A stretch of 64,000 nt of DNA. Source: Candidatus Saccharimonadota bacterium (lineage in GTDB: Bacteria; Patescibacteriota; Saccharimonadia; Saccharimonadales; Saccharimonadaceae). Below the pieces are notes generated by a model that saw only the letters and a program-made list of their open reading frames with translations, made no database searches and was not told the origin of the DNA. Positions within the stretch are counted from its first letter, which is position 1, and every line of letters starts with the position of its first letter. The stretch spans positions 1-64,000 of the forward strand of contig JAPUEE010000004.1 of assembly GCA_027492735.1 (NCBI GenBank), read 5' to 3'. Made by a program: the position numbers and the translations under genes. Of this stretch, positions 5,140 to 21,500 are shown piece after piece.

Positions 5140-5174
5140 TTGTCGAGCTGGTCCTGAATGCCAAACAACTCGAA

Positions 5175-5212: not shown

Positions 5213-5218
5213 AGAACT

Positions 5219-5923
5219 ATGATGACTGAGCGTCAAGCCAAACTCCTCGCGGCAATTATCGAACAATACGCTGAGCTAGCTGCTCCTGTTGGGTCAGTGC
5301 TGCTCGCTAAATTATTTGGTGTTAGTTCGGCCACTATTCGTTCAGAGATGGCAAAATTAGAGGAGATGGGGTACATCACGCAACCTCATACTAGTGCTGG
5401 TCGAATTCCTACTGATAAAGGCTATCGCCTATATGTTAATAGTATCGTTGAGGGTAGTGAAGTACCGATGTACGAAGATCGTCATACCAAGGCTATCGAG
5501 TCAAGAGTCGAGGGACACGAGCGAACTGATCATGCTATACGCACAGCGGTTGATTCTCTCGTAGAGTTAACGCACAACTTGGGTCTAGCGACAATCGGTG
5601 ATCAATTATATCTATCCGGTATCGGTAATCTATTCGCTCAACCTGAGTTTCATGATGGTGAACATGTCCGTGATGTGGCGCGATTACTCGATAATCTAGA
5701 GCCATGGCTTCGTGAAGCGGCTCCGAATGAAACACTCAATGTGTTTATTGGTAGCGAGAATCCAATTGGCCGCGATAGCGGTGTCAGCCTGATTATCAGT
5801 CGTTTCCGTAGCCCTTATTCTGATCATAGTTATATCGGCGTGCTCGGTCCGACTAGGCAGAGTTACGCCCGTGTTATGTCATTAGTATCGCAAACCGGTA
5901 AAATGTTAGAAAGGATCCTCTAA
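5219..5923 (+). CDS. hrcA: Heat-inducible transcription repressor HrcA (short form)
   Basis: 234 residues; HrcA proteins are usually about 340. The N-terminal winged helix (about residues 1-75) is intact, with RQAKLLAAIIEQY, ATIRSEMAKLEEMGYI and the conserved PHTSAGRIPTDKGYR. The C-terminal GAF-like/dimerisation part is present but shortened, ending in a conserved-looking IGVLGPTRQSYARVMSLV. HrcA represses chaperone operons by binding CIRCE and needs GroEL for activity in well-studied species. Its own promoter and those of dnaK and dnaJ here carry CIRCE. There is no Shine-Dalgarno, and the -10 lies 6 nt upstream of ATG. grpE follows after 2 nt. Confidence 0.93.
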   Translation: MMTERQAKLLAAIIEQYAELAAPVGSVLLAKLFGVSSATIRSEMAKLEEMGYITQPHTSAGRIPTDKGYRLYVNSIVEGSEVPMYEDRHTKAIESRVEGHERTDHAIRTAVDSLVELTHNLGLATIGDQLYLSGIGNLFAQPEFHDGEHVRDVARLLDNLEPWLREAAPNETLNVFIGSENPIGRDSGVSLIISRFRSPYSDHSYIGVLGPTRQSYARVMSLVSQTGKMLERIL

Positions 5924-5925
5924 AC

Positions 5926-6381
5926 ATGCCAAAAGCTCAAAAAGACAATGAGAAAATAGCCGAACTAACTACCGACATCCAGCGGGTACGAGCTGATTTC
6001 GAGAATTACCGCAAGCGAGTTGAATCGGAAAAGCAATCAGCTCGCGATTATGGGCAAAAGGAAATGATCATTAAATTATTGCCGGTGATCGATAATATCG
6101 AGCGTGCGGTTGGTCATGTTCCGGCTGAATTATCAGATAATACTTGGGCTCAGGGTATTGTCACGCTCCAAAAGAACCTGGAAAAGACACTTGTATCAAT
6201 CGGCATCACGAAAATTGAGGCTCAATCTGGCGCTCTATTTAATCCAGATCTGCATCATGCCGTTCAATTCGACGAAGATTCGGATGGTGATCAGGAAGTC
6301 GTAGCCGAGGAACTGCAGCCTGGTTATATGCTCGGCGGTCAGGTTCTCCGCGAAGCTATGGTCAAAGTTACTCGCAAATAA
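5926..6381 (+). CDS. grpE: Nucleotide exchange factor GrpE
   Basis: 151 residues. It starts with a coiled-coil region holding RADFENYRKRVE (about residues 23-34) and ends with the GrpE beta-domain pattern HHAVQFDEDSDGDQ, LQPGYMLGGQVLREAMVKV. GrpE dimers release ADP from DnaK. The acidic disordered N-terminus of typical GrpE is nearly absent. The gene follows hrcA by 2 nt, with GAAAGGA inside the hrcA end serving as ribosome binding site. hrcA-grpE therefore form one CIRCE-controlled unit, and dnaK has its own promoter. Confidence 0.95.
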   Translation: MPKAQKDNEKIAELTTDIQRVRADFENYRKRVESEKQSARDYGQKEMIIKLLPVIDNIERAVGHVPAELSDNTWAQGIVTLQKNLEKTLVSIGITKIEAQSGALFNPDLHHAVQFDEDSDGDQEVVAEELQPGYMLGGQVLREAMVKVTRK

Positions 6382-6406
6382 ATCCTTATTGTTTAAAATA
6401 CAACGA

Positions 6407-6445
6407 TTAGCACTCTTGACATGTGAGTGCCAATCGCGCTACAAT
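6407..6445 (+). promoter_or_regulatory. CIRCE operator and promoter of dnaK
   Basis: TTAGCACTC (6407-6415), nine bases, GAGTGCCAA (6425-6433): one mismatch from a perfect CIRCE. The spacer starts with a consensus -35 TTGACA (6416-6421). TACAAT (6440-6445) is the -10 after 18 nt. Unlike hrcA and dnaJ, this transcript has a leader of about 55 nt with a strong Shine-Dalgarno, in line with a need for high output. Confidence 0.92.
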
Positions 6446-6508
6446 AGATACATCAACAATCATGCAGAGTGATTGTTTGGATGGGCAATCGATAACGAAA
6501 GGAGAATT

Positions 6509-8395
6509 ATGGGAACAATTATCGGAATTGACCTCGGTACAACGAACAGTGCGATGGCGTATCTGCTCGCTGGGAAGCCAGAGGTTATTACGAACAAAGA
6601 AGGTAACCGTACCACCCCGAGCGTGGTTGGTATTAAAAAAGGCGAGCGCTTGGTTGGGCAGGTTGCCCAGCGCCAGCGTGTCGTTAATGCCGAAAACACG
6701 ATTTATGGTATTAAACGTCTCATTGGTCGCAAGTTCAAGGACAAAGAAGTCCAGGACGACATCAAAATCATGCCGTACAAAATTGTCGACAAAGATGGCA
6801 ATGCTGCCGTCGAGCTAGATGGTAAAGTCTATACACCAGAAGAAGTCAGCGCGATGATTCTCGGTAAACTCAAAGCTGACGCCGAGGCCTTTCTCGGTCA
6901 ACCAGTTACTGAGGCGGTTATTACTGTGCCGGCTTACTTTGACGACAGTCAGCGCCAAGCTACCAAAGATGCCGGTAAAATCGCTGGTCTCGAGGTTAAG
7001 CGCATCATTAACGAGCCAACGGCTGCAGCTCTGGCCTATGGTCTGGAAAAGAACAAAGAGGAAAAAATCGCGGTCTTCGACCTTGGTGGCGGTACGTTTG
7101 ATGTATCTATTCTCGAACTAGGCGATGGTGTATTTGAGGTAAAATCAACCAACGGCGATACTCACCTCGGTGGTGAGGACTTTGATAATCGCATCGTGAA
7201 TTACTTCCTCGACACGTTCAAGGGCGAAACGGGCATTGACCTGAAAAGCGACAAAGCAGCGATGCAGCGCCTCAAAGACGAGGCTGAAAAAGCCAAAAAA
7301 GAACTCAGTTCAACGAACGAATACGAGGTCAACTTGCCGTTTATCACCGCCGATAGCGACGGTCCAAAGCACTTCGAGCACAAGCTCACTAGGGCTAAAC
7401 TCGAAGAGTTGGTCGGTGATCTGCTCAATCGATTAGCTGATCCGTGTGAAAAAGCTCTCAAAGATGCCAAATTAAAAGCCAGCGACATCAACGAAGTAGT
7501 GTTGGTCGGTGGTATGACGCGCATGCCTGCGGTTATCGAAAAAGTGAAAAGCATTTTCGGCAAAGACCCAATGGCTGGCGTGAATCCTGACGAAGTTGTC
7601 GCAGTCGGCGCAGCAATTCAGGGCGGCGTGCTCGCGGGTGACGTCAAAGATGTGCTGCTTCTCGATGTGACACCACTCTCCCTCGGTATCGAGACCATGG
7701 GCGGCGTGAGCACGAAATTGATCGAACGCAACACCACGATCCCAACCAGTAAATCTGAAACGTTCTCGACCGCTGCTGATAATCAGCCACAGGTTGAAAT
7801 CCATGTTCTCCAGGGTGAGCGAGAATTTGCGAATGATAACAAATCGCTCGGCAAATTCATCTTGGACGGCATTGCTCCGGCACCGCGCGGCGTGCCACAG
7901 GTCGAGGTGACCTTTAACCTAGACGCGAATGGCATTTTGAATGTCACCGCCAAAGACAAAGGTACCGGCAAAGAGCAGTCAATCACTATTCAAAACAGTG
8001 GTAACCTCAGCAAAGAGGATATCGCCAAGGCTCAGGCTGAGGCTGAAGCTCACGCTGATGACGACAAGAAGAAGCGTGAATTAATCGATGCGCGTAATCA
8101 GCTCGAACAGCTCATTTACACCTCGAAAAAGATGCCAGACGAGTTCAAGGATAAAATCTCCGACGAGGACAAAAAAGCCATCGAAGGTGCCGTCAAAGAG
8201 GCCGAGGAAAAATTGAACTCCGAGGACAAAGACGAGCTCGAAGAAGCTACCAAGACACTGAGCGAGCGTGTCCAGTCAATTGGCGCCAAGCTCTACCAGC
8301 AGGCTGATGAGTCAAAGGACGATAGCAAATCTGACGACAAAGGATCAGACAAAGACGAAGCCGTCGAAGGCGAAGTCGTTGACGACAAAAAATAA
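6509..8395 (+). CDS. dnaK: Chaperone DnaK (Hsp70)
   Basis: 628 residues, normal length. I chose the ATG at 6509 because GAAAGGAG (6497-6504) lies 4 nt upstream and the protein then starts [14 protein letters not shown], the conserved phosphate-1 motif. The ATPase domain contains [31 protein letters not shown] and [10 protein letters not shown]. The substrate-binding part includes [17 protein letters not shown]. The C-terminal lid ends in an acidic tail with GEVVDDKK. It folds client proteins with DnaJ and GrpE. Heat control is through the upstream CIRCE. A hairpin terminator follows at 8426. Confidence 0.98.
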
Positions 8396-8425
8396 CAAAG
8401 ACGTCAGCAATCTGATCACGCAAAG

Positions 8426-8453
8426 CTCCCGTTTTTCACTAGCGGGAGTTTTT
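8426..8453 (+). terminator. Rho-independent terminator after dnaK
   Basis: CTCCCG (8426-8431) pairs with CGGGAG (8443-8448) around an 11-nt loop, followed by TTTTTGTT. It lies 31 nt after the dnaK stop and separates dnaK from the next transcription unit. Confidence 0.85.
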
Positions 8454-8522
8454 GTTCGGTCTTGTTATCGCGCTCATTATGCTATAATGGTTATACAAAC
8501 TTAATCTCGAGAGGAGGGGGTT

Positions 8523-8789
8523 ATGGATGCAATGAATATAGTCGGCTGGGTGGTCTTGGGCGGTCTGGCTGGATGGATCGCGTCAAAATTTGTCGGCACT
8601 GACGAACGGCAAGGTCTCGTCGGTAATATCATCGCTGGTGTACTCGGTGGTGTAGTCGGTGGTTGGGTATTCTCCCTCATGGGTGGAGCAGGCGTGACGG
8701 GTTTCAACGTCTGGAGTCTACTTGTAGCGGTCGTGGGCGCCATGATTGTGCTCTTGATCTGGAAAGTTGTTTCCGGTAACAAGAAATAA
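8523..8789 (+). CDS. GlsB/YeaQ/YmgE-family small membrane protein
   Basis: 88 residues with three hydrophobic segments and the Gly-rich family pattern: GWVVLGGLAGWIASKFVG, NIIAGVLGGVVGGWVFSLMG, and a final helix ending in LLIWKVV. The family (Transgly_assoc) is widespread and linked to stress in several bacteria, with no established biochemical function. TATAAT at 8483-8488 with a TTGTTA about 15 nt upstream gives a promoter, and GAGAGGAGGGGG before the ATG is a strong ribosome binding site. Its place between dnaK and dnaJ suggests a stress-related role, but it has its own promoter and no CIRCE. Confidence 0.85.
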   Translation: MDAMNIVGWVVLGGLAGWIASKFVGTDERQGLVGNIIAGVLGGVVGGWVFSLMGGAGVTGFNVWSLLVAVVGAMIVLLIWKVVSGNKK

Positions 8790-8815
8790 TCTCTAGCAGT
8801 AGCTGAGATACATAA

Positions 8816-8853
8816 TTAGCACTCTTTACATTTGAGTGCTAATTTCATATACT
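8816..8853 (+). promoter_or_regulatory. Perfect CIRCE operator and promoter of dnaJ
   Basis: TTAGCACTC (8816-8824), nine bases, GAGTGCTAA (8834-8842): a perfect consensus CIRCE. TTTACA (8825-8830) within the loop is the -35 and TATACT (8848-8853) the -10, 17 nt apart. The -10 ends 7 nt before the dnaJ ATG and no Shine-Dalgarno is present, so the transcript is probably leaderless. Confidence 0.93.
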
Positions 8854-8860
8854 AGATACT

Positions 8861-9976
8861 ATGAATAAACGCGACTACTACGAAATTTTAGGAGTTAAAA
8901 AAGACGCCTCAGATGACGAGATAAAGAAAGCTTTTCGTAAACTGGCGGTCAAATATCACCCGGACAAAGAGAGCGGCGATGAAACCAAGTTCAAAGAGGC
9001 TAACGAAGCCTACGAAGTTCTCAGAGATGAAAAAAAGCGTCAGCGCTATGATCAGTTCGGCCATGCTGGTGTTGGCGGGCACCCGGGTGGCGGTAGCAAC
9101 CCGTTCGAGGGATTTAACGGCGGCGGACAAAATGTTCATTTTGATTTCGGCAGCGGCGGTTTCGGAGACTTGGGCGACATATTCTCTTCGTTTTTCGGCG
9201 GTCAACGTAGTCAATCGGGACCTGGTCGTGGGCGTGATATTGAAACGAGCATTAATCTGACGTTCAAAGAAGCTATTTTTGGTACTGAAAAGACGATTTC
9301 GATCAATCTTGATGTTACCTGCGATCACTGCAAAGGCGATGGTGCCGAGCCGGGTTTTGGAACCAAAGAATGCCCGACCTGTCATGGCTCCGGCCAAGAA
9401 GTTCGTGTTATCAATTCACTATTTGGCCCCATTCAACAGGCGCAGACGTGCCATACCTGTCATGGTCGCGGTAGAGTTCCAGAAAAAGACTGTATCGAAT
9501 GTAGCGGTCGCGGTGTCAAGCGTGACAAACAGGACATCAAGGTCAAGATTCCGGCAGGTGTTGACGAAGGGTCGGCTATTCGACTCTCTGGTCGCGGTGA
9601 AGCAATTGCCGGCGGAACTGCCGGTGATCTCTACGTTGCTATTCATGTTGCACCTCACAAGAAATTTACTCGCGAAGGCGATCTGATACTCAGCGAAGAG
9701 ACGGTATCGATGGTCGATGCGGCGCTCGGCACAGAGCTCGAGGTTGAGACTATCGATGGCGAGTTGACGATGAAGATTCCCGCCGGCACGCAGTCCGGGA
9801 CTGATTTCAAGCTTTCAGGTCATGGCGTCCCACATCTTCGTGGCAATAACAGAGGTGCACACATTATCACTATCAAAGTCGAGACTCCAACAAAATTGAC
9901 GAAAAAACAGCGAGAACTACTAGAGGAGTTTCAGACAGGTGGCAAGCGCGGTTTATTCGGTACGCGAAATGCATAG
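8861..9976 (+). CDS. dnaJ: Chaperone DnaJ
   Basis: 371 residues, full type I DnaJ. The J domain (1-70) has the HPD motif in [10 protein letters not shown] Gly/Phe-rich linker follows (about 70-125). The zinc-binding region has four CxxCxGxG repeats from residue 154: [24 protein letters not shown] and CIECSGRG. Two beta-sandwich C-terminal domains follow. DnaJ delivers clients to DnaK and stimulates its ATPase. It is separated from dnaK by a YeaQ-like gene but shares CIRCE control. Confidence 0.98.
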
Positions 9977-10004: not shown

Positions 10005-11429
10005 ATGTCTATAAGGATAAAAAGCACAGCGGAGAGATTTAGCGATCTACCGATAGCGCATACTCCTTCGAACGAACCCTATGGAGTTCAGGCAGACAAA
10101 GAAGCAGCCAAGGCTCGTGCCGAAGTACGCAGAGATTTTTTGAATGGCGCGGAGGATGAGCCTGAAATTGATTACCCTCAGCTAAATGAGAGCGGACTAG
10201 AAATACAGCTCCGTATGATCGACCAGCTCATCGATGATATAGAATATGCCCCAGAGGATACAGATCCCGCAGAACAGGATGCGCTATATGATATCTTGAC
10301 GCAAAAACGTGAGGAAATCTTGCGGCATCTTACAATTGCTCGTCTGGTGGGTAGAGAGGCGGTGAGCCCATGGTTAGAAACTGTGTCATCGAAAGACTTG
10401 GAGCGGCGTGCAGCGGAGCACAATTGTGAGATTTTCGGCCGACCAAACGTTGCAGTGTTCAACTATTTACTCGCCGAAGCGCGTCGTAAAGCTATCGAAA
10501 CGCTGCAGTCTGATGATACCGAAGTTGCTCGTATAGCTCAAGAATTTCTCGATATGACACATGACGTTGAAGGCAGAGAGCGAGCAGAGCCTGTTGAGTT
10601 AGACGCCGAATATCTTGTCACCTTAAAAACTGACTTATTTGCAGTCATGCCGGCACTAGAATCAATGACACAACTAGACGTACCGGAAACAGTGTCGGCA
10701 GTCGATGCGATCCCTTATGTGGATGCCGCATTAGCAGCCATGGGGTTGACTGAAAAGGGCTACAGGGCGCGGCGTACGCACGGCAGTGCATTAGAGGAGA
10801 ATCCCAAGATGCACGTAGTAGATGTTGGTGAGAACCGGCGGGATTTTGACGGTTCATCAGGTAATGATGTGATAGCTACATCGGTCCACGAGGCGATCCA
10901 TATACTTCGTCATCAGAATGCCCAGGAGCAACCTGATCCATCAAAGCGTATGACCTCTAGAGCTAATATACTTGCCGAAGAAGGCTTGTGTGTCGTCGTT
11001 GAGCAGATCGTGCGAGAGGAGAACGTAACGCGGGGTGTGCCGTACTATATTGCAGCAGGATTACAAATGGGCATTGACATTACAGGCAATAACCGATCGG
11101 TAGATGCACGCGATTTCCGACAGACCCATGAAATACTGTGGCGATGGAGTGTTATCATGGAGGGCGCTGGCGATATTGCCAAGCAGAAGGAGACAGCGTA
11201 TGCCAGAGTTATGCGCACTAGACGGGGTGGGGCATTAGATACGCGCGACATCCAGTATTTTGCTGCTGACCAAAATATCAAAGAGTGGCTGCAGTCGCTC
11301 CGTAACCTACCGGCAGAGGAGAGGCAGGAAAAACTGCGATGGGCTCTCTCGGCTCAATTTGATCCAAATGATCCCGGAGACGCTGATAGATTTGCTACAA
11401 TAAATAGGATGAGAGAGGGGGAAGAGTAA
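10005..11429 (+). CDS. DUF1704-family zinc metallopeptidase (tyrosine-carboxypeptidase-like)
   Basis: 474 residues. The catalytic pattern is visible: SVHEAIHILRH with HEAIH at residues 295-299, followed by EEGL at 325-328, the DUF1704 'QEGLA'-type third-ligand motif. Eukaryotic members (MATCAP/TMCP) remove C-terminal tyrosine from tubulin; bacterial members are poorly characterised. The N-terminal 200 residues are helical and charged, with no signal peptide, so it is probably cytoplasmic. It is immediately followed (1-nt gap) by an ATP-grasp ligase gene, so one enzyme may remove what the other adds; that is inference. A -10-like TATAGT lies close to the ATG and no clear Shine-Dalgarno is seen. 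Confidence 0.78.
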   Translation: MSIRIKSTAERFSDLPIAHTPSNEPYGVQADKEAAKARAEVRRDFLNGAEDEPEIDYPQLNESGLEIQLRMIDQLIDDIEYAPEDTDPAEQDALYDILTQKREEILRHLTIARLVGREAVSPWLETVSSKDLERRAAEHNCEIFGRPNVAVFNYLLAEARRKAIETLQSDDTEVARIAQEFLDMTHDVEGRERAEPVELDAEYLVTLKTDLFAVMPALESMTQLDVPETVSAVDAIPYVDAALAAMGLTEKGYRARRTHGSALEENPKMHVVDVGENRRDFDGSSGNDVIATSVHEAIHILRHQNAQEQPDPSKRMTSRANILAEEGLCVVVEQIVREENVTRGVPYYIAAGLQMGIDITGNNRSVDARDFRQTHEILWRWSVIMEGAGDIAKQKETAYARVMRTRRGGALDTRDIQYFAADQNIKEWLQSLRNLPAEERQEKLRWALSAQFDPNDPGDADRFATINRMREGEE

Positions 11430-11430
11430 G

Positions 11431-12342
11431 ATGAAGAGGGCATTGTTTCTATCGACTTGCTACAAAAATGGACGTCAACCTTCAAGCAATAAAGCGAAAG
11501 CTATTTTGGAAGATATGGCACGAATGAGTCGTAGCTCCGAGCTTAATGTTGACACAGTCATGATCGAAGACCTTCGGTTTTTAATCGAAAATAATCAGGT
11601 GAGTATCGTAGTAACAGATACCGGAGCCGATATCGCCAATTATGATGTGGTATACGTAAAGTTTTGGGGTGGATTGCATAATCTCGTAGGGGCTATCGGT
11701 ATATACCTCAAAGCCAAAGCAGTGAAATTCATTTGTGGCGAAATAGCGAATTACCGACTAGAGGATAAAATTTCCGAGGGTATACTCATGGCCACAAATG
11801 ATATATCGTACCCAGATACAGTATTTTCAATTGACCAAGAAGCTATGGCTAATCAGGCTAAAACATGGGGCTATCCATTTGTCATAAAGGCGATTGATGG
11901 TCAAAAAGGTGACGATAATTACCTGGTGAGAGACGAGCATCATTTGCAGGAGATTATGCACGATGCCAATGAACGATCGGTCTGGCTGATGGCTCAGCGT
12001 ATGGTTCCAAACAGCGGTGACTATAGAGTGTTATGTTTTGGTTTTGAGCCGAAACTCATTATTAAACGAGTAGGCGACAGGTCAAAAACCTATCTCAATA
12101 ACACGTCGCAGGGTGCATCGGCGGAATTGGTAGCTTGTGCAGACTTTCCGGCCGACGCGCTCGATGCGTGTAGAAAGGTTAGTCGTTTAGCTAACCGTGA
12201 AGTAGCCGGAGTAGACGTAATGTTTAATGATAATACAGGAAGCTACGTAGTACTAGAGGTGAATTATAGTCCTCAGCTTGTCACGGGGATGTTTGTAGAT
12301 GACAAAATCCGGGCATGGACTGAGTATTTACACAGCCTTTGA
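11431..12342 (+). CDS. ATP-grasp ligase, RimK-like (first of three)
   Basis: 303 residues. ATP-grasp hallmarks: FVIKAIDGQKGDDNYLV (lysine and glycine loop), DYRVLCFGFEPKLIIKR (DxR motif), and GVDVMFND then VVLEVNYSPQ (acidic and Asn metal ligands). The family joins a carboxylate, through an acyl-phosphate, to an amine. The substrate cannot be read from sequence. It lies 1 nt after the DUF1704 peptidase with GAGGGGG as ribosome binding site, so the two are co-expressed. Its last 15 nt overlap the end of the convergent ATP-grasp gene on the other strand. Confidence 0.82.
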   Translation: MKRALFLSTCYKNGRQPSSNKAKAILEDMARMSRSSELNVDTVMIEDLRFLIENNQVSIVVTDTGADIANYDVVYVKFWGGLHNLVGAIGIYLKAKAVKFICGEIANYRLEDKISEGILMATNDISYPDTVFSIDQEAMANQAKTWGYPFVIKAIDGQKGDDNYLVRDEHHLQEIMHDANERSVWLMAQRMVPNSGDYRVLCFGFEPKLIIKRVGDRSKTYLNNTSQGASAELVACADFPADALDACRKVSRLANREVAGVDVMFNDNTGSYVVLEVNYSPQLVTGMFVDDKIRAWTEYLHSL

Positions 12343-13251
12343 TATATTTTCTGCGAGCAGGCTCAAAAATTCATCATTTGCTGGTCCAAATGTTTCGCGA
12401 GACCAGATACCAGGTGAGGAATTTAACTCAAAAAGCTTCCAGCTAGTACCATCAAAGCCGAAATCTGCCGAGAAAAAGCGTGGTGTGTCGACGCCGAAAC
12501 GTCGATCTAGTTCGTGGGCTATTGATGCTAACTCCTCGGGGATTTCAGAGACATATAATGCACGTAGTTTCCCGCCGAGATGTAGGTTGGTACGCAGCTC
12601 GTCTTCGCGAGCCGGCCAACGCAAGAGGCCGTGAATAATTTCTCCGTTACAGATCCCTACGCGCACATCGTGAATTCCTTTTGCTAAATCAGAAAAGCCG
12701 CCCGAAGTGTCGACAAACTCTTGTGCTAGGAGGGGAAACTGTAGATTACCAGGGAAATCGCGAAGGTTTCCGACAAAAACTTTTTCACCACCGTAACCGC
12801 GTAACTCTTTCAGCGCAATCTTTTTATCGTTATATTTCGCACGCATTATTTGTAATTGAGCCTCGTTTTCCAATAGGAAGCTAGTCGCAGAAAAATCCGG
12901 TGCGAACAAGTAGGCTAGATACTTGTCATTACACACCTCGGAAATGTTGCGAGGATTTATCTTTGGTAGATCATCAAATGGAAAGCGATGCTTATCATAG
13001 AGCAGATTGACATGAATTTCGTTATCGATTTTCTTGTAGAGAATCGTATCGTTCTCTAGTTTCGCACGCCAGCCTTGTTTGAAATAACCGTCTTGCAGGT
13101 AATTATTATTAGCATCAAATACGACGAACACTTCCGTGCCCCGCGTTATGAGCTCTCGGAAAAGCTGTGCGTAGCCCTGGGCGTTATCAGGAGAATCAAA
13201 TGTTGGAGCGGTAGTTGCGTCGGCGGCCGAAATATAGAAAGCGATTTTCAT
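12328..13251 (-). CDS. ATP-grasp ligase (second of three, opposite strand)
   Basis: 307 residues. Seen in sequence: an N-terminal Rossmann-like domain (MKIAFYISAADATTAPTFDS), IALKELRGYGGEKVFVG as the ATP-binding lysine/glycine loop, DVRVGICNGEIIHGLLR, a basic NLHLGGKLR, and FELNSSPG as the C-terminal metal-ligand motif. Overall it resembles glutathione-synthase/RimK-type enzymes but belongs to neither with certainty. It converges on and overlaps the first ATP-grasp gene by 15 nt and diverges from the retropepsin-RimK pair. A cytoplasmic protein or peptide ligase is likely; the substrate is unknown. Confidence 0.78.
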   Translation of the reverse strand: MKIAFYISAADATTAPTFDSPDNAQGYAQLFRELITRGTEVFVVFDANNNYLQDGYFKQGWRAKLENDTILYKKIDNEIHVNLLYDKHRFPFDDLPKINPRNISEVCNDKYLAYLFAPDFSATSFLLENEAQLQIMRAKYNDKKIALKELRGYGGEKVFVGNLRDFPGNLQFPLLAQEFVDTSGGFSDLAKGIHDVRVGICNGEIIHGLLRWPAREDELRTNLHLGGKLRALYVSEIPEELASIAHELDRRFGVDTPRFFSADFGFDGTSWKLFELNSSPGIWSRETFGPANDEFLSLLAENISKAV

Positions 13252-13323
13252 TATCGTTGCATTATAGCATATCGTAGCAGCGTGCCTTTTATAGCTAGGA
13301 GATAATCTGGAATATGCTAAAGC

Positions 13324-13352
13324 TTGACTAATTTAACATAAAATGATACAAT
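13324..13352 (+). promoter_or_regulatory. Promoter of the retropepsin-rimK pair
   Basis: TTGACT (13324-13329), 17 nt, TACAAT (13347-13352). The -10 ends 9 nt before the ATG at 13362, so any leader is only about two bases. Confidence 0.75.
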
Positions 13353-13361
13353 TTAAAGGTT

Positions 13362-13838
13362 ATGACACGCGAAAAAATCACTATCGGTCGCTATGAATAC
13401 ATATGGATAGTCCTATCCGGCCAGAAGAAGATCCCGGCTCGTATTGATACTGGTGCACGGACCACAGCGATCTGGGCGAGTGATATTTCTGAAAAAGATG
13501 GCAAGGTCTTTTGGAAGTTTTTTGATCGTGGCTCGGAATTTTACACCGGTGAAACTTTTTCAACGGGACACTTTGAAAAGAGAGTAGTAAAAAGCTCTAC
13601 TGGACATCAGCAAGTTCGCTATCTCATTCCTATCATCTTGCAAATAAAAAAGCGTCGCGTCCGAACATATGCAACGTTGGCGGATCGCTCGCATGCGACG
13701 TTCCCTATTTTGATCGGGCGCAATACCTTGAACGGAAAGTTCGTCGTAGACGTAGCCCATGGATCACGCAAACTATCTGATCTAGACAGAGCTGGTTTTT
13801 ATGAGCTCCAGGGTCAAACAAACGAAAGGACGAAATAA
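13362..13838 (+). CDS. Retropepsin-like aspartic protease (RimB/'ATP-dependent zinc protease' family)
   Basis: 158 residues. PARIDTGARTTAI holds the aspartic-protease D-T-G-A at residues 29-32, and FPILIGRNTLNGKFVVDV is the conserved C-terminal motif of the DUF785 family. Despite the database name, members are single-domain retropepsin-like proteins acting as dimers. In Pseudomonas, RimB is encoded with RimK and modulates ribosomal S6 modification. Here the stop overlaps the rimK start by one base (TAATG at 13836-13840), giving tight co-expression. A role in trimming or control of RimK-added residues is inferred from that link. Confidence 0.85.
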   Translation: MTREKITIGRYEYIWIVLSGQKKIPARIDTGARTTAIWASDISEKDGKVFWKFFDRGSEFYTGETFSTGHFEKRVVKSSTGHQQVRYLIPIILQIKKRRVRTYATLADRSHATFPILIGRNTLNGKFVVDVAHGSRKLSDLDRAGFYELQGQTNERTK

Positions 13839-14752
13839 TGAAAATTGCAATTTTATCTAATGGTAACGCTAATTACTCGACCAAACGTCTGGTCGAGGCT
13901 GCCAAGGCTCGAGGCCACACGGTCAAAGTCATCAAATACAAAAACTGTTTTGTGTCAGTTGACAGCCAAGATCCAAAGGTTATTTACAAAGGTAAAGAAA
14001 TCGACATCAAAGAATATGATGCGATTATTCCGAGAATCGCTAATTACATGACACGTTATGGTACGGCGATCGTGCGCCAGCTCGAGAGTGAAGGTATTTT
14101 TACGACGGCTAGCGCCATTGCGATTCAGCGTTCACGAGATAAACTGCGTGCGACCCAGATTATGGCTAGGGTGGTCGGTGTGCCAAAGACAGTCTTTTCG
14201 CGAAACTCCCTAGATATTGATGGTATGCTAGATCAAGTTGGAGGTGCTCCAGTTATTATCAAGTTGGGTAGTTCAACTCATGGTAATGGCGTAGTGTTGG
14301 CTGACACCAAAAAAGCCGCAAAATCTGCTCTGCAGGCATTCTATCTCTACAACGAAGATGGCACCAACATTATGATCCAAGAATTTGTTCAGGAATCTGC
14401 CGGTGTCGACATCCGTGTCTTTGTAGTTGGTGGTCGGGTTGTTGCGAGCATGAAACGCCAGTCGCTCGACGATGATTTCAGGTCAAATCTCCATCGAGGC
14501 GGCGAAGGTGTGCCGGTAAAACTGACGGATGAAGAGCGCAAAACTGCGATCAAGGCCGCCAAAGTTATGGGTCTCAGTGTAGCTGGTGTTGATATTATGC
14601 GTAGCGCTCGTGGACCACTGGTACTAGAAGTTAATGCGAGTCCGGGCTTTGGCATCGAAAAGGTGACTGGTCGCGACGTGGCGACGCCAATTATTGAATA
14701 TATAGAGCAGAATGCCAGGCGTGGCCAGAAAAAAGACAAGATTGGCGCATAG
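13838..14752 (+). CDS. rimK: RimK-family alpha-L-glutamate ligase (third ATP-grasp)
   Basis: 304 residues, the usual RimK length. Motifs: VIIKLGSSTHGNGVVLA (ATP-binding loop), IMIQEFV, DIRVFVVGGRVVASMKR, FRSNLHRGGEG (RimK signature), GVDIMRSARGPLVLEVN and ASPGF. E. coli RimK adds glutamates to the C-terminus of ribosomal protein S6; Saccharibacterial targets are unknown. GAAAGGA 8-14 nt upstream is the ribosome binding site, inside the end of the protease gene. The Lys/Arg-rich C-terminal tail may contact RNA or ribosome (inference). Confidence 0.9.
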   Translation: MKIAILSNGNANYSTKRLVEAAKARGHTVKVIKYKNCFVSVDSQDPKVIYKGKEIDIKEYDAIIPRIANYMTRYGTAIVRQLESEGIFTTASAIAIQRSRDKLRATQIMARVVGVPKTVFSRNSLDIDGMLDQVGGAPVIIKLGSSTHGNGVVLADTKKAAKSALQAFYLYNEDGTNIMIQEFVQESAGVDIRVFVVGGRVVASMKRQSLDDDFRSNLHRGGEGVPVKLTDEERKTAIKAAKVMGLSVAGVDIMRSARGPLVLEVNASPGFGIEKVTGRDVATPIIEYIEQNARRGQKKDKIGA

Positions 14753-14964: not shown

Positions 14965-16539
14965 ATGAAAGCCAGGTTGTCTTTCCGTGAGTTTTGGCAT
15001 CGTCTGTTTAGCTCGCGAGTTCATACATCATGGCTCATCACCAGCATTTGTTTAGGTTTAATTATAGGTGTCGGTGTGTCGGTTTTTCCGGCATCCATAT
15101 GGCAAAACGGTGTGCCGTGGCTAATTATCGGTATTATTTTGGGAAGTATCTCGGTTACTAGCCGACTGAGAATAATGGTGGTAGTGGCGCTTATAGCTGG
15201 TCTCTCAATGGGGCTATGGCGAGGAATGCTAGCTCGAACAGATCTATCAATCTATCAACGCTATATCGGACAAGAGGTACGAATTATCGGAACGATTGCC
15301 GACGATCCAGATAGAGATCCTAGCAATGTTGTCAAATTACGCGTCGATAATATAGAAATAATACTGGCATCAGAATACGACCATTTACGGGATGAGTCAG
15401 ACATCGAGAACTATTTCGGGTCTATGCCAGGTCAAATCTGGATGAGCTCGATCACGAACATTCGTGATATCAAACGGAGCGATCATATTGAGGCGAGCGG
15501 CATGCTAAAGAGTGGCTTCGGTAGTTTCGCGGCGACGATGAGCTATGGTGTACTGACCCGCGTCGAACGCTCAGACCAGGCTGATCCATTACGAGACCTG
15601 AGAGACGGATTTGGCGACAGTCTGCGATCAGCCGTCCCTTCACCGGCAGTAGACCTAGGAATGGGAATTCTGGCAGGACAGAAATCAGCGTTGCCGGCCG
15701 ATATGGCGCAAGCGTTTATCATCGCGAGCCTGACACATATTGTGGTGGCGAGCGGGTATAATCTGACGATTCTGATTCGATTTGCGCGGCGTCTGTTTGC
15801 CAAGGTGTCTCGGCTAGTTGCCCTCATTTTCTCGGGTGGCTTGGCGATTGGGTTTGCGGCGCTGGTTGGATTTTCGCCGAGCATGACGAGAGCGTCATTG
15901 GTAGCTATATTGTCACTTGTCGCCTGGTACTACGGACGGAGATTTCATCCGGTCACACTATTGGCGTTGGTGGCTGCTATAACGGTCGTCATTAATCCTG
16001 CAAGTGTTTGGGGTGATGTCGGCTGGTATTTATCTTTCCTGAGCTTTGTTGGTGTGATTATTCTCGCGCCGCTTCTGACGGCCTATTTCTTTGGCGCAAA
16101 GAAGACAGGTGGAAGAGAACCTGTAAAAATGTCACTCACTGCGAGTCTACGTCAAGTATTTGTTGAGACGCTGAGTGCACAGCTCGTGGCTGCTCCGATT
16201 ATTGTGCTGTTCATGGGGCAATTTTCGTTGTACGGGATGATTGCGAATATCATGGTGTTGCCGCTTTTGCCACTTATTATGTTACTGACGTTTCTATCGG
16301 GATTAGCAGCTCTGGTACTACCGGTTACGATTGCGAGCGTTATTGCGTGGCCTGCGACGCAGCTTCTCAATTACGTCATTGGGATAGCTAATTGGGTAGC
16401 TGAACTGCCTATGGCTCAGAATGAAGTTTCAGTGTTGCTGCCAGTCGTTATCGCGATATACACGGCTATATTTGGCGTCATAGTGTACCTAAAGGCGAAG
16501 ACGCAGTATGATTTCCGTTCGAGCAATGTGGTAGAATAG
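14965..16539 (+). CDS. comEC: ComEC/Rec2 competence membrane protein (channel core only)
   Basis: 524 residues. N-terminal helices, then an extracytoplasmic OB-like region (about residues 100-200), then the competence domain starting GMGILAGQKSALPADMAQAF and THIVVASGYNL (about residue 258-267), followed by eight or so membrane segments. ComEC forms the inner-membrane channel for single-stranded DNA during transformation. The C-terminal metallo-beta-lactamase nuclease domain found in many ComEC proteins (total about 750 residues) is absent; the protein ends after the last helix. TATACT ends 6 nt before the ATG with no Shine-Dalgarno, so the mRNA is probably leaderless. murT and gatD follow closely. 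Confidence 0.85.
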   Translation: MKARLSFREFWHRLFSSRVHTSWLITSICLGLIIGVGVSVFPASIWQNGVPWLIIGIILGSISVTSRLRIMVVVALIAGLSMGLWRGMLARTDLSIYQRYIGQEVRIIGTIADDPDRDPSNVVKLRVDNIEIILASEYDHLRDESDIENYFGSMPGQIWMSSITNIRDIKRSDHIEASGMLKSGFGSFAATMSYGVLTRVERSDQADPLRDLRDGFGDSLRSAVPSPAVDLGMGILAGQKSALPADMAQAFIIASLTHIVVASGYNLTILIRFARRLFAKVSRLVALIFSGGLAIGFAALVGFSPSMTRASLVAILSLVAWYYGRRFHPVTLLALVAAITVVINPASVWGDVGWYLSFLSFVGVIILAPLLTAYFFGAKKTGGREPVKMSLTASLRQVFVETLSAQLVAAPIIVLFMGQFSLYGMIANIMVLPLLPLIMLLTFLSGLAALVLPVTIASVIAWPATQLLNYVIGIANWVAELPMAQNEVSVLLPVVIAIYTAIFGVIVYLKAKTQYDFRSSNVVE

Positions 16540-16545
16540 AGGCGG

Positions 16546-17787
16546 ATGAAATCACTTTTTCTCTCTAGTAGTTTAGGCAAAATGGTATCAAAAGCTTCTC
16601 GATTGCGAGGCGGCCACGGCTCAGCGCTGCCCGGGCTAGTGGTTGAAAAAGTATCGCCACACTTCTTGCGGGATGCGTTGGCTCAGTTGCCCTACGGCGT
16701 CGTCGTTATCAGTGGCACTAACGGCAAGACAACGACCACTAAAATCGTCGTCGAATTACTGAGAGCGGCAGGGCTGAAAGTATTCACGAATCCTAGCGGC
16801 AGTAATTTTACTAGAGGAATTGCGAGCGTGGCAGCGCTTGAAATGAAGCGTGGGCGGCTCGACGCGGATATTGCTGTTGTAGAGCTCGATGAGGCGCACG
16901 CAGTTCATTTTGTACGACAAGTTCCACCTAAATATTCATTGATTTTAAATGTTCTACGTGACCAGCTTGATCGGTTTGGCGAGATTGATACAACGGCAAA
17001 ATTACTAGCCCAGATTGCAGAGCGAACGACTGGAACGGTAGTATTAAACCGCGAAGATCCTCTCGTCGCAACGATTCCGGCAGGCAAGAAGGTTTACTTC
17101 GGTTATTCAGGATCAGTTGCTGAGCTATTTCCAAATGACGATGAGCTCTATGGCGCAAAGAAGCGTAGTCCGCCCGGTAAATTAGCCGCTACTGTTACTC
17201 TCGATGGACTAGACGGGTCTCTCGCAACATTTAATATTGGATCGGCAGAACTATTGCTCCGCGGCGCGCATAATGCGCTCAATGCGGCAGCGGCGTTAGC
17301 ATTGGTTCGGGAAATCTTGGGCGATAGATTTAGTGCCGAGGAGTCTCTCCAGGCTTTATCTCAAATTCGACCGGCATTCGGTCGAGGGGAGAGTTTTATG
17401 ATCAACGGCCAACCGCTAGAGTTGATCTTGGTAAAAAATCCTAGCGGTTTTCGAATTAGTCTCGCTAGCCAGAATAACGCTAGGGCAGCTACGATGATTG
17501 CTATCAATGATCAGTATGCTGATGGTCGTGATATGAGTTGGTTGTGGGATGTGGACTTTTCTATACTGCCATCAGTTGAGATGGTGAGCGGTGTCAGAGC
17601 GTATGATATGGCATTGCGATTAGAAACGAGTGGGGTTGACGTGAGGATGGTTGAAACCGATCTGCCAGCGGCGATAGATACGTTTTTGACGAAAAATATT
17701 GGTCACGATCGTCCAATGCAACTATATGCAACCTATACTGCTATGTTAAAAATTCGTAAAGCCCTAAAGGCACGGAGGCAGACATGA
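16546..17787 (+). CDS. murT: Lipid II isoglutaminyl synthase subunit MurT (lacking zinc ribbon)
   Basis: 413 residues. Mur-ligase P-loop SGTNGKTTTTK at residues 56-66, NPSGSNFTRG, ELDEAHAV, LNVLRDQLDRFGE and GAHNALNAAAAL, and a C-terminal DUF1727 region starting LVKNPSGFRISLAS. MurT activates the D-Glu alpha-carboxylate of lipid II for amidation by GatD. MurT proteins of staphylococci and streptococci carry a four-cysteine zinc ribbon between the central-domain halves. Here the equivalent stretch (about residues 180-215) has no cysteine. It overlaps gatD by 4 nt (ATGA). Confidence 0.92.
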   Translation: MKSLFLSSSLGKMVSKASRLRGGHGSALPGLVVEKVSPHFLRDALAQLPYGVVVISGTNGKTTTTKIVVELLRAAGLKVFTNPSGSNFTRGIASVAALEMKRGRLDADIAVVELDEAHAVHFVRQVPPKYSLILNVLRDQLDRFGEIDTTAKLLAQIAERTTGTVVLNREDPLVATIPAGKKVYFGYSGSVAELFPNDDELYGAKKRSPPGKLAATVTLDGLDGSLATFNIGSAELLLRGAHNALNAAAALALVREILGDRFSAEESLQALSQIRPAFGRGESFMINGQPLELILVKNPSGFRISLASQNNARAATMIAINDQYADGRDMSWLWDVDFSILPSVEMVSGVRAYDMALRLETSGVDVRMVETDLPAAIDTFLTKNIGHDRPMQLYATYTAMLKIRKALKARRQT

Positions 17788-18530
17788 GTCGAACGCTAAC
17801 TATCGTGATGCTTTATCCCGCAGAAATGAACATTTATGGTGATCACGGTAATCTTGAATTCTTGACTCGTAGGGCTGAACTCTATGGTTTTACTGTTAAT
17901 ACTGTTGCCTACGAACCGGGTGATAGGCTCCCCGACAATGTAGATATCATTTTGGGCGGTGGCGGTCAGGATTCGGGCCAGACAAAAATCACTGACGATT
18001 TAGTAAAATTGGCTCCAACGCTACACAAATTGGCACAAGACGGTGTTCCTATGCTGGTAATCTGCGGCCTCTACCAATTATTCGGCCATTATTTTTTGAC
18101 CACTGATGGTGTAAAGATTCCAGGGATAGGCCTATTTGATGCCCATACGACGGCAGGCGACGAGCGTCTCATCGGAAATATTATGACAGAGTGGGAAGGA
18201 TATCAGTTGGTTGGTTATGAGAACCATAGCGGGCTGACGCATTTGAATGATGGTCAGGCTGCGTTTGCTTCCGTTTTGAAAGGGGCAGGGAACAATGGTC
18301 AGGATACCACAGAAGGTGCACGAATATATAATGTGTTTGGATCGTATCTCCATGGCCCATTATTGCCGAAAAACCCGAAACTAGCAGACGAGCTGTTGTT
18401 ATTAGCTGCGAAGCGACGTTTTAATGATACGATATTAAATTTTCAGAATGATCATGCTAAAAAGACGCTACAGCTACTAGATAATCTAGCTGAAAAGGCA
18501 CGTCTGATAGCAATAGCTCGCTCTCGCTAA
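17784..18530 (+). CDS. gatD: Lipid II isoglutaminyl synthase glutamine amidotransferase GatD
   Basis: 248 residues. A class I (triad) glutaminase: catalytic Cys94 in MLVICGLYQLFG and His190 in GSYLHGPLLPKNP, at the positions expected from staphylococcal GatD. GGGGQDSGQ precedes the active site. It makes ammonia from glutamine and passes it to MurT, converting D-isoglutamate to D-isoglutamine in lipid II. The start overlaps the murT stop, matching a 1:1 complex. Amidated stem peptides suggest actinobacterium- or firmicute-like wall chemistry. Confidence 0.93.
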   Translation: MSRTLTIVMLYPAEMNIYGDHGNLEFLTRRAELYGFTVNTVAYEPGDRLPDNVDIILGGGGQDSGQTKITDDLVKLAPTLHKLAQDGVPMLVICGLYQLFGHYFLTTDGVKIPGIGLFDAHTTAGDERLIGNIMTEWEGYQLVGYENHSGLTHLNDGQAAFASVLKGAGNNGQDTTEGARIYNVFGSYLHGPLLPKNPKLADELLLLAAKRRFNDTILNFQNDHAKKTLQLLDNLAEKARLIAIARSR

Positions 18531-18550: not shown

Positions 18551-21500
18551 CTAAAACCTCGCCGGCAACACGGTCTGTTTCGTTACGATCCAGGTATTAC
18601 CAGTAGTAGAACTCTGTCTAATCATATAGGGGGTAAGGAACAAGTTTGGTTGGTAGTTAAATAACTCAGATGGTGTGATTGCTTCTAGGTGTGTTTCACC
18701 ATTAGCTGTTAGGGTATTCGTACTACTTGAACTATACCCTGATCCGAGGGTGCGGCGGAGCTGAGGAGTAGTTCGTGAGATGACAGCACCATTAATTCTG
18801 AGCTGACGGGAACAGGCGCCGCCTTCTCTAGTGTCGCTAGCCGGCAAGCTAGCAGTACTAGTGGCACAGCTATAGAAACGGTCAGTGGCAATATACGTAC
18901 CAAAGATATAATTGACATCGCTACGGACAAAGATGTTCTTTGCAATTATTGTCACCATGGGTATATCTGCCAAGTTAGACCAGCCAGTACCTACGAGGTC
19001 ATTATAGATATCCTGAGTGATATAGACGTTGCCACTAACAATGATAGTGATACGCTTGCCTGCTGGGTCGGTAGAACTATTAAATATTTCTAGATCACCA
19101 TCCCATTTGTACGTACCCGATCCCATGGCCCATAGCGCAGTACAGCTAGTGCCGATTCTACAATTGGCTGCGCCGAACCTGGTTACATCTGGTATACTCG
19201 TCATACTAGAAACGGCTGTTTTTGCCCCAGTTGGCAAACTGATAGTCTGGGTGAGCGAAGTACCATTGTACATACCACCACCTATAGCATTACTACTACA
19301 GTTAACGGAATTTATACTATTAGCAAACGTTAAATTACAAGCCCTCGATGCAGTGCCATTATCTACGGTCCAACCACCAGAGCCAAAATAGTTAATATTC
19401 CCAGTTGTCGCGCTATTACCCTTGTATCCTAGTAGACCGTATTGTGACCACGAACCTCGTCTAGCGTCAGACTGAGATACGCCGAGGAAACCACCATTGT
19501 ACGAGGTACTCGTTCCATCCCAGATACCACCTGACGATGAGTCAGAGCCGCGTAATTGTACCTGCGGGGATTTAGACCATTTTACGCAGACCGGGTTAGA
19601 ATAGCGGTATTCAGTAGTCTTGTCAAAAGCCCAACCACCACTCATGATGACAGTATAATAGCAAACCTTTCTACCGTACCAGGCATCCTGGAAGGTTTGA
19701 TTAAAGGCGGCTCCATTCCACGTACCCGATGAAAAACTGCTGTCAGAGAGACCACTCACTGTCGATAGCGTTGCAATACTCGCAGCCCCACTGCCAAAGC
19801 TCCCTATATTAGCGGCTGCAGGCGCTACATTAAGGTTGGTAGTTATGCCTTGGACGGGATTCCAAGAACCAGAGCCGATGACCTGAACGATAGAGACATT
19901 GTGGCTCGTACCAGCAACATTTGTTTGTGAACTGTCTACGCTGGGGGTAATAGTGTAGCTATCACCTACAGCTGCATTTTGAGTGCCGATACCGAGACTA
20001 CTATCAATATTTGGTTGCAGTATCCATGGCGTACGTATGGTGACAGAACAGCGATTTTCGAGACCTGCATCAGTATCTCCCCAATAAATGGCAGCTGTTC
20101 CTGTGCCGTCATTATCCGATAGTCGGCGTCGGTCAAAGCCAAAGAAGTAACAGATATCCATTCCGGTGAGGTTATCTAGTGTGCTGGCCGGAATGGCATT
20201 ATTCCACAAACGCTCAGCAGTCGTAGTCGTGTAATAATTGGTGCTACCCGATGAAGGTAGAGAGGCAGAAACCCACGATCCTGATTTGCTACATCGTTTG
20301 TTTCCTGATTCATACCCAAAGCCAGTGGGACAGAGGGAACTGACATCGGTTTGGCCACCGTTCACGCTATTAGCAGTGATCATGCCAGATCCAAATAGCC
20401 ACGATGGTCGATATTTAAAGGTAGCTGCTCCTGGTGATGAGTCGCTGCTTCGCGTTACTCTAACCATGTAGTAGATTCTGTCCTCAGTACCAGCCGCATG
20501 GCCACCAAAGGCCGGATAGCTCGGATAGGCAGATTTACGGTTATTATTGTAAAATGCATTGCTCGACGTGTCTATGGTGTTACTCGTAGGGCTGCTATGA
20601 TTAACGGCCGAGTAGGTTGACGCAGTAATGGTCCAATCTGGAACGGTAACACATCGGCTGGTAGAATACACGGTGCCACTACCTGAGTAACTCGATGGGG
20701 TAGCATAGGCCTGTGAGCAGAAAGTCTTTCCGATGTCGGCGGACGTAATCACACGGGATTCTGTGTAAGTCGCTGCTGTACCGGTGCCTCGTCCGGCATT
20801 GACTGTTCCTACTGCAGTAGTTCCTGTCCAACCGTTGGTGCGGTTATATCCATAGGCAACGGCTCTGTCTGTGGTATCAGGTCCACTATTTGTAATAGTG
20901 TGTGTCCAGGTGATGGTATTACCTACCGTAGCAGCCGTCGCGCTAATAGATGTAGAAGCAGCTATTGTCCAAATTTTGCGACAGTCTTTTTTACTATAAA
21001 TCTCATTAGTCGGTACTTCGACGGTAATGTCGTTTCCTTCACGCAAGTCTGTGATATCTAGAATATATCCCGAGTTGGCTGCCATAGCGAAGTTTACGCT
21101 AGCAGATTGCCCAGAGTTCGCTGTGATTTTATGTATACCGGCCGAGGCGGTGCCTGTTGCCGAGATTCTATTTCTCGAAGTGAATAGTCCTGAGTTGTTG
21201 GGCACTATGCCGGCTGGACCTGTCACGCGCATTTTGAGATCTTTGCTACTCTGGTATTTACTGGCATCTGTGTCGTAAAAAGCAATATCGCCATTGCCAC
21301 CGCTTGCGTCACAACTACCGAATCCAGTCTGGAGATCATAGTAGTCGCCACCGGAGCTAGAGCTAAAGTCGCGTGAGTACCCTACTGATTTGCCACCCAT
21401 AACACCAAAGGATGCACCATCCGTATCGGCAGTCTCTAGATTGAACCAGGCCCTAGAATCTCCGTCGCCACTCGAATCAACTCTGACAATGGCAGCGTAC

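Follow-up and report, generated by a model that had tools for sequence, protein, structure and literature searches.

An ATP-grasp ligase and MATCAP-type peptidase locus in a Candidatus Saccharimonadota bacterium as a candidate system for editing C-terminal protein tails

In a Candidatus Saccharimonadota bacterium (assembly GCA_027492735.1), five consecutive genes at positions 10005-14752 of contig JAPUEE010000004.1, of which we analysed the first 64,000 nucleotides (the window), encode three ATP-grasp ligases and two predicted peptidases (Table 1). A preceding sequence-only reading had assigned these five genes to their families, and the open reading frames at these coordinates as well as our profile searches agree with that assignment.

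Table 1. Features at the locus and its borders, with positions in the window
Feature	Position	Strand	Length	Basis or remark
DnaJ, conserved anchor on the left side of the variable slot	8861-9976	+
MATCAP/DUF1704-type gluzincin-like metallopeptidase, predicted carboxypeptidase	10005-11429	+	474 aa	family profile, fold
GRA, RimK-like ATP-grasp ligase	11431-12342	+	303 aa	PF08443
GRB, accessory ATP-grasp ligase, RimK/glutathione-synthetase-like	12328-13251	-	307 aa	PF08443, GSH-S_ATP
Promoter-like site 5' of RimB-RimK	13324-13352	+		-10/-35-like; consensus match only (10/12, with TG)
RimB-type retropepsin-like aspartic peptidase	13362-13838	+	158 aa	PF05618; DTGA motif (D29)
RimK, alpha-L-glutamate ligase	13838-14752	+	304 aa	TIGR00768, RimK pre-ATP-grasp
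ComEC-like protein, often situated to the right of the locus	14965-16539	+

The peptidase and GRA genes are separated by a single base (11429/11431) and the RimB and RimK genes overlap by one base at 13838; of the translational coupling that had been claimed for both ligase/protease pairs, the gap and the overlap are thus real and the coupling itself is putative. Because GRB lies on the minus strand, antisense to and convergent with the GRA gene, a single operon of five genes was ruled out, and the plus strand at the locus carries two units, DnaJ-peptidase-ligase and RimB-RimK. A check for a graspetide-like arrangement found no space for a precursor peptide gene on the plus strand inside either unit, small open reading frames being nevertheless present. 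By genome-wide profile search, the 817-kb genome contains only three PF08443 domains, all of them within 10005-14752, and since related genomes moreover repeat the association, the grouping of these genes is more than chance.

RimK scored 178.6 bits with PF08443 (cut-off 21), 233.1 bits with TIGR00768 (cut-off 143.4) and 112 bits with the RimK pre-ATP-grasp domain PF18030 (cut-off 26.4), and it matched Pseudomonas RimK (7qyr) with a phmmer E-value of 1e-88. Its score with the S6-ligase equivalog PRK10446 (307.7 bits) is slightly under the cut-off of 331, and sequence searches place it closest to the S6-ligase RimK. The protein is 57-75% identical to 15 relatives, and with a median pairwise identity of 75% its conservation equals that of DnaJ (73%). 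RimB reached 64.7 bits with PF05618 ('Zn_protease'/RimB; cut-off 27), and within its D29-T30-G31-A32 motif D29, G31 and A32 are invariant over 15 aligned sequences; with 46.2 bits against a cut-off of 200 it stays under the NCBIfam RimB equivalog NF052261 and, judged by its sequence, is RimB-like and not a RimB equivalog. Its gene stands directly 5' of RimK in 79 of 80 named Saccharibacteria loci and is adjacent to it in 44/45 of another locus set, and in a relative (L302) the two are fused. RimB of Pseudomonas shortens or cleaves polyglutamate and has a stimulating effect on RimK (PMC11957791).

The peptidase was placed by means of its family and its fold. Taken as a single sequence it scores 16.3 bits with PF08014, under the Pfam cut-off of 27, and a genome scan with this sequence alone gave no match, its relatives having come from whole-genome profile searches; PF08014 is matched at an E-value of 0.01 by 17 of 18 aligned family members (best 5.7e-20), and the best PDB sequence for the family profile is human MATCAP (7z5g_A, E 1.4e-5). 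An AF2 model (pLDDT 83.6) aligned with MATCAP over 264 residues at a Z-score of 15.9 and an rmsd of 3.9, a match that was absent from the top rows of Foldseek and was found by VIA-align of the Foldseek candidates. The MATCAP chains 7z6s_C and 7z5g_B scored 15.9 and 15.7, the next best structure 11.6, and after MATCAP and DUF885 the fold neighbours are M32 carboxypeptidases (Z 8-9). This last resemblance would suit a general cytosolic, M32-like carboxypeptidase of scavenging or turnover, with modification left to RimB-RimK only, and small-genome epibionts do take up peptides by scavenging. We consider such a role decidedly improbable, since the MATCAP score lies well over the M32 level of about 9 and the peptidase is fast-evolving (median identity 23%) and ligase-linked, unlike a housekeeping enzyme.

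The zinc motif HEAIH occupies residues 295-299 of the peptidase, an EEG motif (E325-E326-G327) supplies E326 as the third ligand, and H295, E296, H299 and E326 are invariant across 18 aligned sequences. The window protein and a few relatives have HExxH, whereas most relatives have the HExxxH typical of MATCAP, and therefore the activity is not simply transferable from MATCAP. We filed the protein under a MATCAP-like superfamily and not as a strict MATCAP/DUF1704 member: the earlier DUF1704/MATCAP call holds by family profile and fold, and has to be loosened for the window protein itself, with its sub-threshold Pfam score and its HExxH motif. MATCAP relatives are exopeptidases that take a single residue from the C-terminus, Glu included (PMC10499314).

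Both accessory ligases passed the PF08443 cut-off of 21, GRA with 46.3 bits and GRB with 33.5 bits, the latter also scoring 31 bits with GSH-S_ATP. For the GRA profile the best PDB match is RimK (5zct, E 5.1e-20), and K153, R213, D262, E276 and N278 are invariant among its relatives. GRB is 56% identical to the product of an L033 gene that is placed between DnaJ and the peptidase, and in L036 a GRB relative is fused to RimB. Minus-strand ligases of the GRB type recur in only a few loci, and the partner ligase of the peptidase varies. As a separate observation, GRA appears as the partner ligase of the window-type peptidase. Membership of the TTL family (PF03133) was rejected for GRA and RimK, with 12.8 and 12.6 bits both under the cut-off of 20.1.

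Among 101 genomes of the family, the peptidase is present in 36 and RimK in 78, and in 29 of the 36 peptidase genomes the two lie at most 7 kb apart, the remaining seven mostly having them on other contigs. RimB-RimK for its part mostly occurs without the peptidase (present in 8/80 loci). Between DnaJ and RimB lies a hypervariable slot whose length ranges from 570 to 9000 bp and which accommodates various additional ligases as well as, in roughly one third of the related genomes, the peptidase; amide ligases occupy it in 31 of 45 loci, and with the models used here a second ligase was not detected in 6/27 peptidase loci. Slots of other genomes contain ligases of the cyanophycin/Mur type as well as CPS-type ATP-grasps accompanied by glycosyltransferases, and some harbour unrelated membrane or VirB6-like proteins or glycosyltransferases. 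Proteins of 780-1100 aa in some slots were discarded as ligases, since by eye they resemble polytopic membrane proteins or VirB6. What is conserved is the type of neighbourhood rather than each gene, with RimB-RimK as its fixed core: of the five-gene co-occurrence proposed beforehand, the linkage of peptidase, ligase, retropepsin and RimK is recurrent, and the exact set is not kept among the related genomes compared.

So variable a slot, with its VirB6-like and membrane proteins and glycosyltransferases, together with peptidase copies distant from RimK (L026, L120, L130), might be an insertion-tolerant site that gathers unrelated enzymes, the peptidase and accessory ligases not cooperating at all. 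We regard this as improbable in view of the strong bias of the slot to amide ligases and the peptidase, of the correlation between the two enzymes on the tree, where peptidase type follows ligase type (14 changes vs 19.3 shuffled, 0/200), and of comparable domains that are fused in distant classes and adjacent in Alphaproteobacteria. The fusions, found in other classes of Patescibacteria, are proteins of about 790 residues that join a RimK-type ATP-grasp, a retropepsin-like and a MATCAP domain, one example being encoded at L154:4333-6729. In a model of such a protein the MATCAP domain aligned with human MATCAP at a Z-score of 26.4 and an rmsd of 2.4 A, and the RimK-like domain reached a Z-score of 15.7; the ATP-grasp corresponds to TIGR02291 (alpha-L-glutamate ligase-like). 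The middle domain may be a degenerate retropepsin, because the catalytic Asp is absent in some fusions. In the Alphaproteobacteria Aminobacter and Sinorhizobium, a MATCAP-family peptidase adjoins an ATP-grasp gene in an operon-like arrangement, and MATCAP relatives of this class have an N-formylglutamate amidohydrolase and a glutathione-synthetase-like ligase as neighbours. Neighbourhood conservation, on which the sequence-only reading had staked its proposal, is thus present, because the linkage recurs across Saccharimonadia-like genomes and the domains are fused in other Patescibacteria.

A write/erase reading of the locus is well motivated genomically. The form of it that we prefer, and to which we give slightly less than even weight, is a cytoplasmic tail-editing module in which a RimB-RimK core is joined by a reversible ligase/MATCAP-type carboxypeptidase cycle, with S6 as the leading candidate acceptor. 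RimK would add glutamates onto a C-terminal carboxylate, and the RimB retropepsin, by analogy with Pseudomonas, would trim or cut polyglutamate and boost RimK. GRA, and perhaps GRB too, would extend the tail served by RimK, or that of a different protein, by a further residue; the neighbouring MATCAP-type carboxypeptidase would take C-terminal residues off, so that ligase and peptidase would form a reversible cycle of enzyme classes analogous to TTL and MATCAP on tubulin. The direct basis of this proposal is the families, the intact catalytic motifs, the fold, the linkage and the fusion; the reaction chemistry, its reversibility and the acceptor we infer.

Ribosomal protein S6 is the leading candidate acceptor; in this lineage its tails terminate in stretches of acidic residues, that of the genome itself reading ...STDTTDEK. 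At least 3 acidic residues among the last 5 are found in 8/13 genomes without RimK and in 27/41 with it (Fisher p = 1), and the tails are also acidic with or without the peptidase, so S6 is permitted but not singled out, and we do not retain it as a demonstrated target. The earlier suggestion to look at S6 first is compatible with these acidic tails, but their sequences do not discriminate. A post hoc impression, which we do not put forward as a result, was of a more frequent C-terminal Lys on S6 where the cassette is present.

The same ligases and peptidases could instead synthesize and degrade a peptide or poly-amino acid that is not bound to a protein. Candidate products are poly-alpha-glutamate or a capped oligopeptide, which might act as a compatible solute, a reserve, the tail of a cofactor or a precursor for surface material. 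RimK does yield free poly-alpha-glutamate, with stimulation by RimB (PMC11957791), and both the cyanophycin/Mur-type and CPS-type enzymes of other slots and the alphaproteobacterial partners, which could equally mean a small molecule, would fit such a product. Overall we judge this rather unlikely, given a RimK that is as conserved as DnaJ and closest to the S6 ligase, and given that the best-studied MATCAP members work on protein tails (PMC10499314).

The tail-editing module that we favour can be set beside several known systems. With RimABK of Pseudomonas it shares an adjacent RimK and RimB-type retropepsin with the DTG aspartate kept, but in front of these the window locus has an additional ligase and a peptidase of MATCAP type, in the order DnaJ-...-RimB-RimK, and no RimA (EAL, PF00563) was found in the 97.6% complete genome, the control having given matches in 6 genomes. 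The Rlo system of Pseudomonas aeruginosa, consisting of the retropepsin RloA, the inactive transglutaminase-7TM protein RloB and the ATP-grasp RloC (PMC12239564), likewise combines an ATP-grasp with a retropepsin, and a gene for an RloB-like 7TM membrane protein mostly adjoins the Patescibacteria fusions upstream. An RloB gene is however absent among the window genes at the locus, the window RimB is without an obvious signal peptide (by eye), and MATCAP does not figure in the part of the published Rlo description considered here (PMC12239564). QEGLA proteins (TIGR02421, 'flavohemoglobin expression-modulating'), for which a published function was not found in the literature searched, also present a MATCAP-family peptidase adjoining an ATP-grasp gene, but in two regions (Aminobacter, Sinorhizobium) neither a retropepsin nor RimK adjoins. 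MATCAP/TMCP (KIAA0895L, KIAA0895) are carboxypeptidases that clip tyrosine from tubulin, TTL being the ligase that opposes them. The locus has in common with this pair the fold, the zinc ligands, the EEG motif and an ATP-grasp amino-acid ligase paired with a MATCAP-type peptidase, and differs in that GRA and RimK are RimK-like and not TTL-like, that the window motif is HExxH and that the genes are here linked or fused.

Conserved neighbourhood, co-variation of type and gene fusion tie the orphan peptidase family DUF1704/QEGLA to amino-acid ligases, which therefore provides a concrete functional hypothesis for this family. More tentatively, and with the odds clearly against it, a bacterial write/erase cycle on protein C-termini, in which an ATP-grasp amino-acid ligase and a carboxypeptidase of MATCAP type, linked or fused in Patescibacteria, would be set atop RimB-RimK, may be a prokaryotic counterpart, possibly a source, of the tubulin tyrosination/detyrosination pair. 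Tubulin detyrosination was an activity long without a known gene, and a system of bacteria in which both of these enzyme classes are present, even united in one polypeptide, would if true make the origin of the tubulin cycle testable. For reduced-genome epibionts, our analysis suggests a diversified ligase slot ahead of a nearly invariant RimK, and the question becomes what gets tagged.

The window is the initial 64 kb of contig C4 in an 817-kb genome that is 97.6% complete; the locus lies directly behind hrcA-grpE-dnaK-dnaJ and is followed after RimK by tRNA-Lys, ComEC and then MurT-GatD. It encodes a MATCAP/DUF1704-like metallopeptidase (the peptidase), two accessory RimK-like ATP-grasp ligases (GRA and GRB), a RimB-like retropepsin and the alpha-L-glutamate ligase RimK; GRA, GRB and RimK are the only RimK-type ATP-grasp domains of the whole genome. 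The closest named record, a Saccharibacteria bin (L231), has a RimK that is 84% identical. A single five-gene operon was ruled out, as GRB is convergent with GRA on the minus strand. The genes therefore form two plus-strand units: GRA starts one base past the peptidase gene, and RimB and RimK overlap by one base. A promoter-like site ends 9 bases before the RimB ATG, so that a leaderless message would result. The MurT-GatD pair (lipid II amidation) is found right behind ComEC, and a nearby protein of 1133 aa with an N-terminal hydrophobic segment is probably secreted or surface-exposed.

Features of the window and fusion proteins in loci of other genomes (L-numbers)
Feature	Location	Strand	Description
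Peptidase	10005-11429	+	474 aa
GRA	11431-12342	+	303 aa, ATP-grasp protein
GRB	12328-13251	-	307 aa, ATP-grasp protein
Promoter-like site	13324-13352		ahead of RimB
RimB	13362-13838	+	158 aa, RimB-like retropepsin
RimK	13838-14752	+	ATP-grasp ligase
MurT-GatD	16546-18530		
1133-aa protein	18551-21952	-	
L151 fusion	5897-8269		ATP-grasp/retropepsin-like/MATCAP, about 770-800 aa
L152 fusion	4793-7132		as L151
L153 fusion	94-2478		as L151
L154 fusion	4333-6729		as L151
L155 fusion	7273-9579		as L151

The sequence-only reading had called the first gene product a DUF1704 peptidase. Because it scores 16.3 bits against the Pfam MATCAP model, below the cut-off of 27, this family call needed testing. 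In an alignment of the window protein with 17 relatives found in genomes of its own family (n=18), H295, E296, H299 and E326 were invariant, as were R404, D415 and Y418, and 17 of the 18 members matched PF08014 (best E 5.7e-20). The best PDB sequence for the family profile was human MATCAP (7z5g, E 1.4e-5), with an alignment covering both the zinc and EEG motifs and weaker aligned pieces at an N-terminal F..NP..Y and a C-terminal R..RG..KD..Y motif. MATCAP was also the best structural match of the AlphaFold model of the window peptidase (pLDDT 83.6; Z 15.9, 264 residues), followed at lower rank by DUF885 proteins (Z 11.6) and M32 carboxypeptidases (Z 8-9). The assignment thus stands for family profile and fold, but the window protein alone falls short of the cut-off and shares with a few relatives the zinc motif HExxH, most having HExxxH. 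On sequence and model, it is a MATCAP-like peptidase with a variant zinc helix.

Window RimK matches Pseudomonas RimK with E 1e-88, and RimK (5zct, E 5.1e-20) is the nearest match of the GRA profile, GRA retaining the ATP-grasp acid/amide residues D262, E276 and N278; neither GRA nor RimK resembled tubulin-tyrosine ligase more than it did RimK. Window RimB retains the DTGA aspartate. RimB also occurs fused, at one end or the other, to differing ATP-grasp domains (RimB~GRA, GRB~RimB and RimB~RimK, in L023, L022, L036, L121, L302 and others), as if it were a shared partner module.

Among 101 genomes of the family, profile matches were obtained for the peptidase in 36, covering 28 genera, and for RimK in 78. 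Both genes lie less than 7 kb apart in 29 of the 36 peptidase genomes, and on different contigs in five of the remaining seven; a naive random-placement test gives p of about 1e-41 for this proximity, the true p being larger through genome relatedness. Gene maps of 54 loci show, in this order, DnaJ, a variable slot, RimB-RimK and often a protein that we read from sequence as DUF192-like, a small membrane protein and ComEC. RimB adjoins RimK in 44 of the 45 loci having both DnaJ and RimK, and their slots hold another ATP-grasp in 31 and the peptidase in 27, in a sample enriched for peptidase. In a second sample, selected solely for RimK and comprising 80 public loci (almost all with Saccharibacteria in the title), RimK has RimB immediately upstream in 79, with an extra ligase in 29 and the peptidase in 8. 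Slots elsewhere hold Mur-type or additional RimK-like ligases. Co-occurrence, which the sequence-only reading had put forward as a check, holds for the proximity of peptidase and RimK. With RimB near-constant and ligase and peptidase varying, RimB-RimK is the core, and ligase and peptidase make up an added module that can be exchanged.

Slot contents include Mur/cyanophycin-type ligases of 416-427 aa with a TGTKGKTT motif, between DnaJ and RimB-RimK (L109, L111, L128); a membrane protein of about 870-900 aa, VirB6-like by eye and possibly a type IV secretion component, with a small partner between DnaJ and the ligases (L022, L032, L098, L106, L119, L127); and a recurring opposite-strand pair of a CPS-type ATP-grasp and a glycosyltransferase (L024, L028, L103, L278, L287, L297).

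Median pairwise identity is 75% for RimK and 73% for DnaJ, and 33%, 29% and 23% for the fast-diverging RimB, GRA and peptidase. On the peptidase tree, ligase type is tracked by peptidase type (14 changes versus a shuffled mean of 19.3; 0/200 as low), and the window clade of four members, all GRA-linked, has full support.

Phylum-wide, the peptidase profile matched 93 of 380 Patescibacteria, and PF08014 was found in 63 of 287, about 24 times within reading frames of 670-1040 residues. Several of these long frames, read whole, join an ATP-grasp related to RimK (TIGR02291, E about 1e-74; PF14397) to a MATCAP domain (E 1e-35 to 1e-52 with PF08014), in some along with a RimB-matching stretch; in L151-L155 the ATP-grasp is alpha-L-glutamate-ligase-like. 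The model of one fusion matches MATCAP (Z 26.4, rmsd 2.4 A, 282 residues) and, with its N-terminal part, RimK (Z 15.7), both at Foldseek probability 1.00; its middle part is all-beta, and in some fusion members the retropepsin-like stretch is without the catalytic aspartate. Most fusions are preceded by a gene of about 500 aa, and the tested ones carry a 7TM_transglut domain, sometimes with PKD, resembling RloB of the Pseudomonas aeruginosa Rlo system. Unfused clusters of ATP-grasp~RimB and peptidase occur in L159, L160 and L162, with Pfam support for the RimB domain in L159 and L162. In Alphaproteobacteria, a MATCAP-type (QEGLA) gene is flanked by genes for an N-formylglutamate amidohydrolase and a glutathione-synthetase-like ATP-grasp (from annotation in Aminobacter, by translation in Sinorhizobium). 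MATCAP-type peptidases and ATP-grasp enzymes are thus linked in three separate settings. The Alphaproteobacterial neighbours lend weight to the chief rival explanation, that these ligases and peptidases metabolize a free poly-amino acid or peptide.

The amidoligase survey of Iyer et al. (2009) reportedly lists many ligase-peptidase neighbourhoods and may already include the QEGLA association. RimBK (PMC11957791) and Rlo (PMC12239564) are already published; a MATCAP link is described neither in the Rlo paper passages covered here nor in the open library under DUF1704 or QEGLA.

Ribosomal protein S6, suggested as the first protein to examine for C-terminal additions, ends in ...STDTTDEK in the window genome and mostly in EEE, EE, KE or EEK across the family. 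The acidity of its last five residues did not differ with RimK presence (27/41 with, 8/13 without), and S6 is retained as a candidate acceptor only. Human MATCAP/TMCP enzymes remove single residues, glutamates included, at C-termini (PMC10499314). Families, motifs, fold, linkage, co-variation and fusion are established by the analysis, and the reaction scheme is inferred. By analogy, the ligase would extend the C-terminus of an acceptor with an added residue, and the adjoining MATCAP-type peptidase, its HExxH form presumably acting as a carboxypeptidase, would trim C-terminal residues. Such a pairing of a presumed C-terminus-extending ligase with a MATCAP-type enzyme suggests a reversible cycle.
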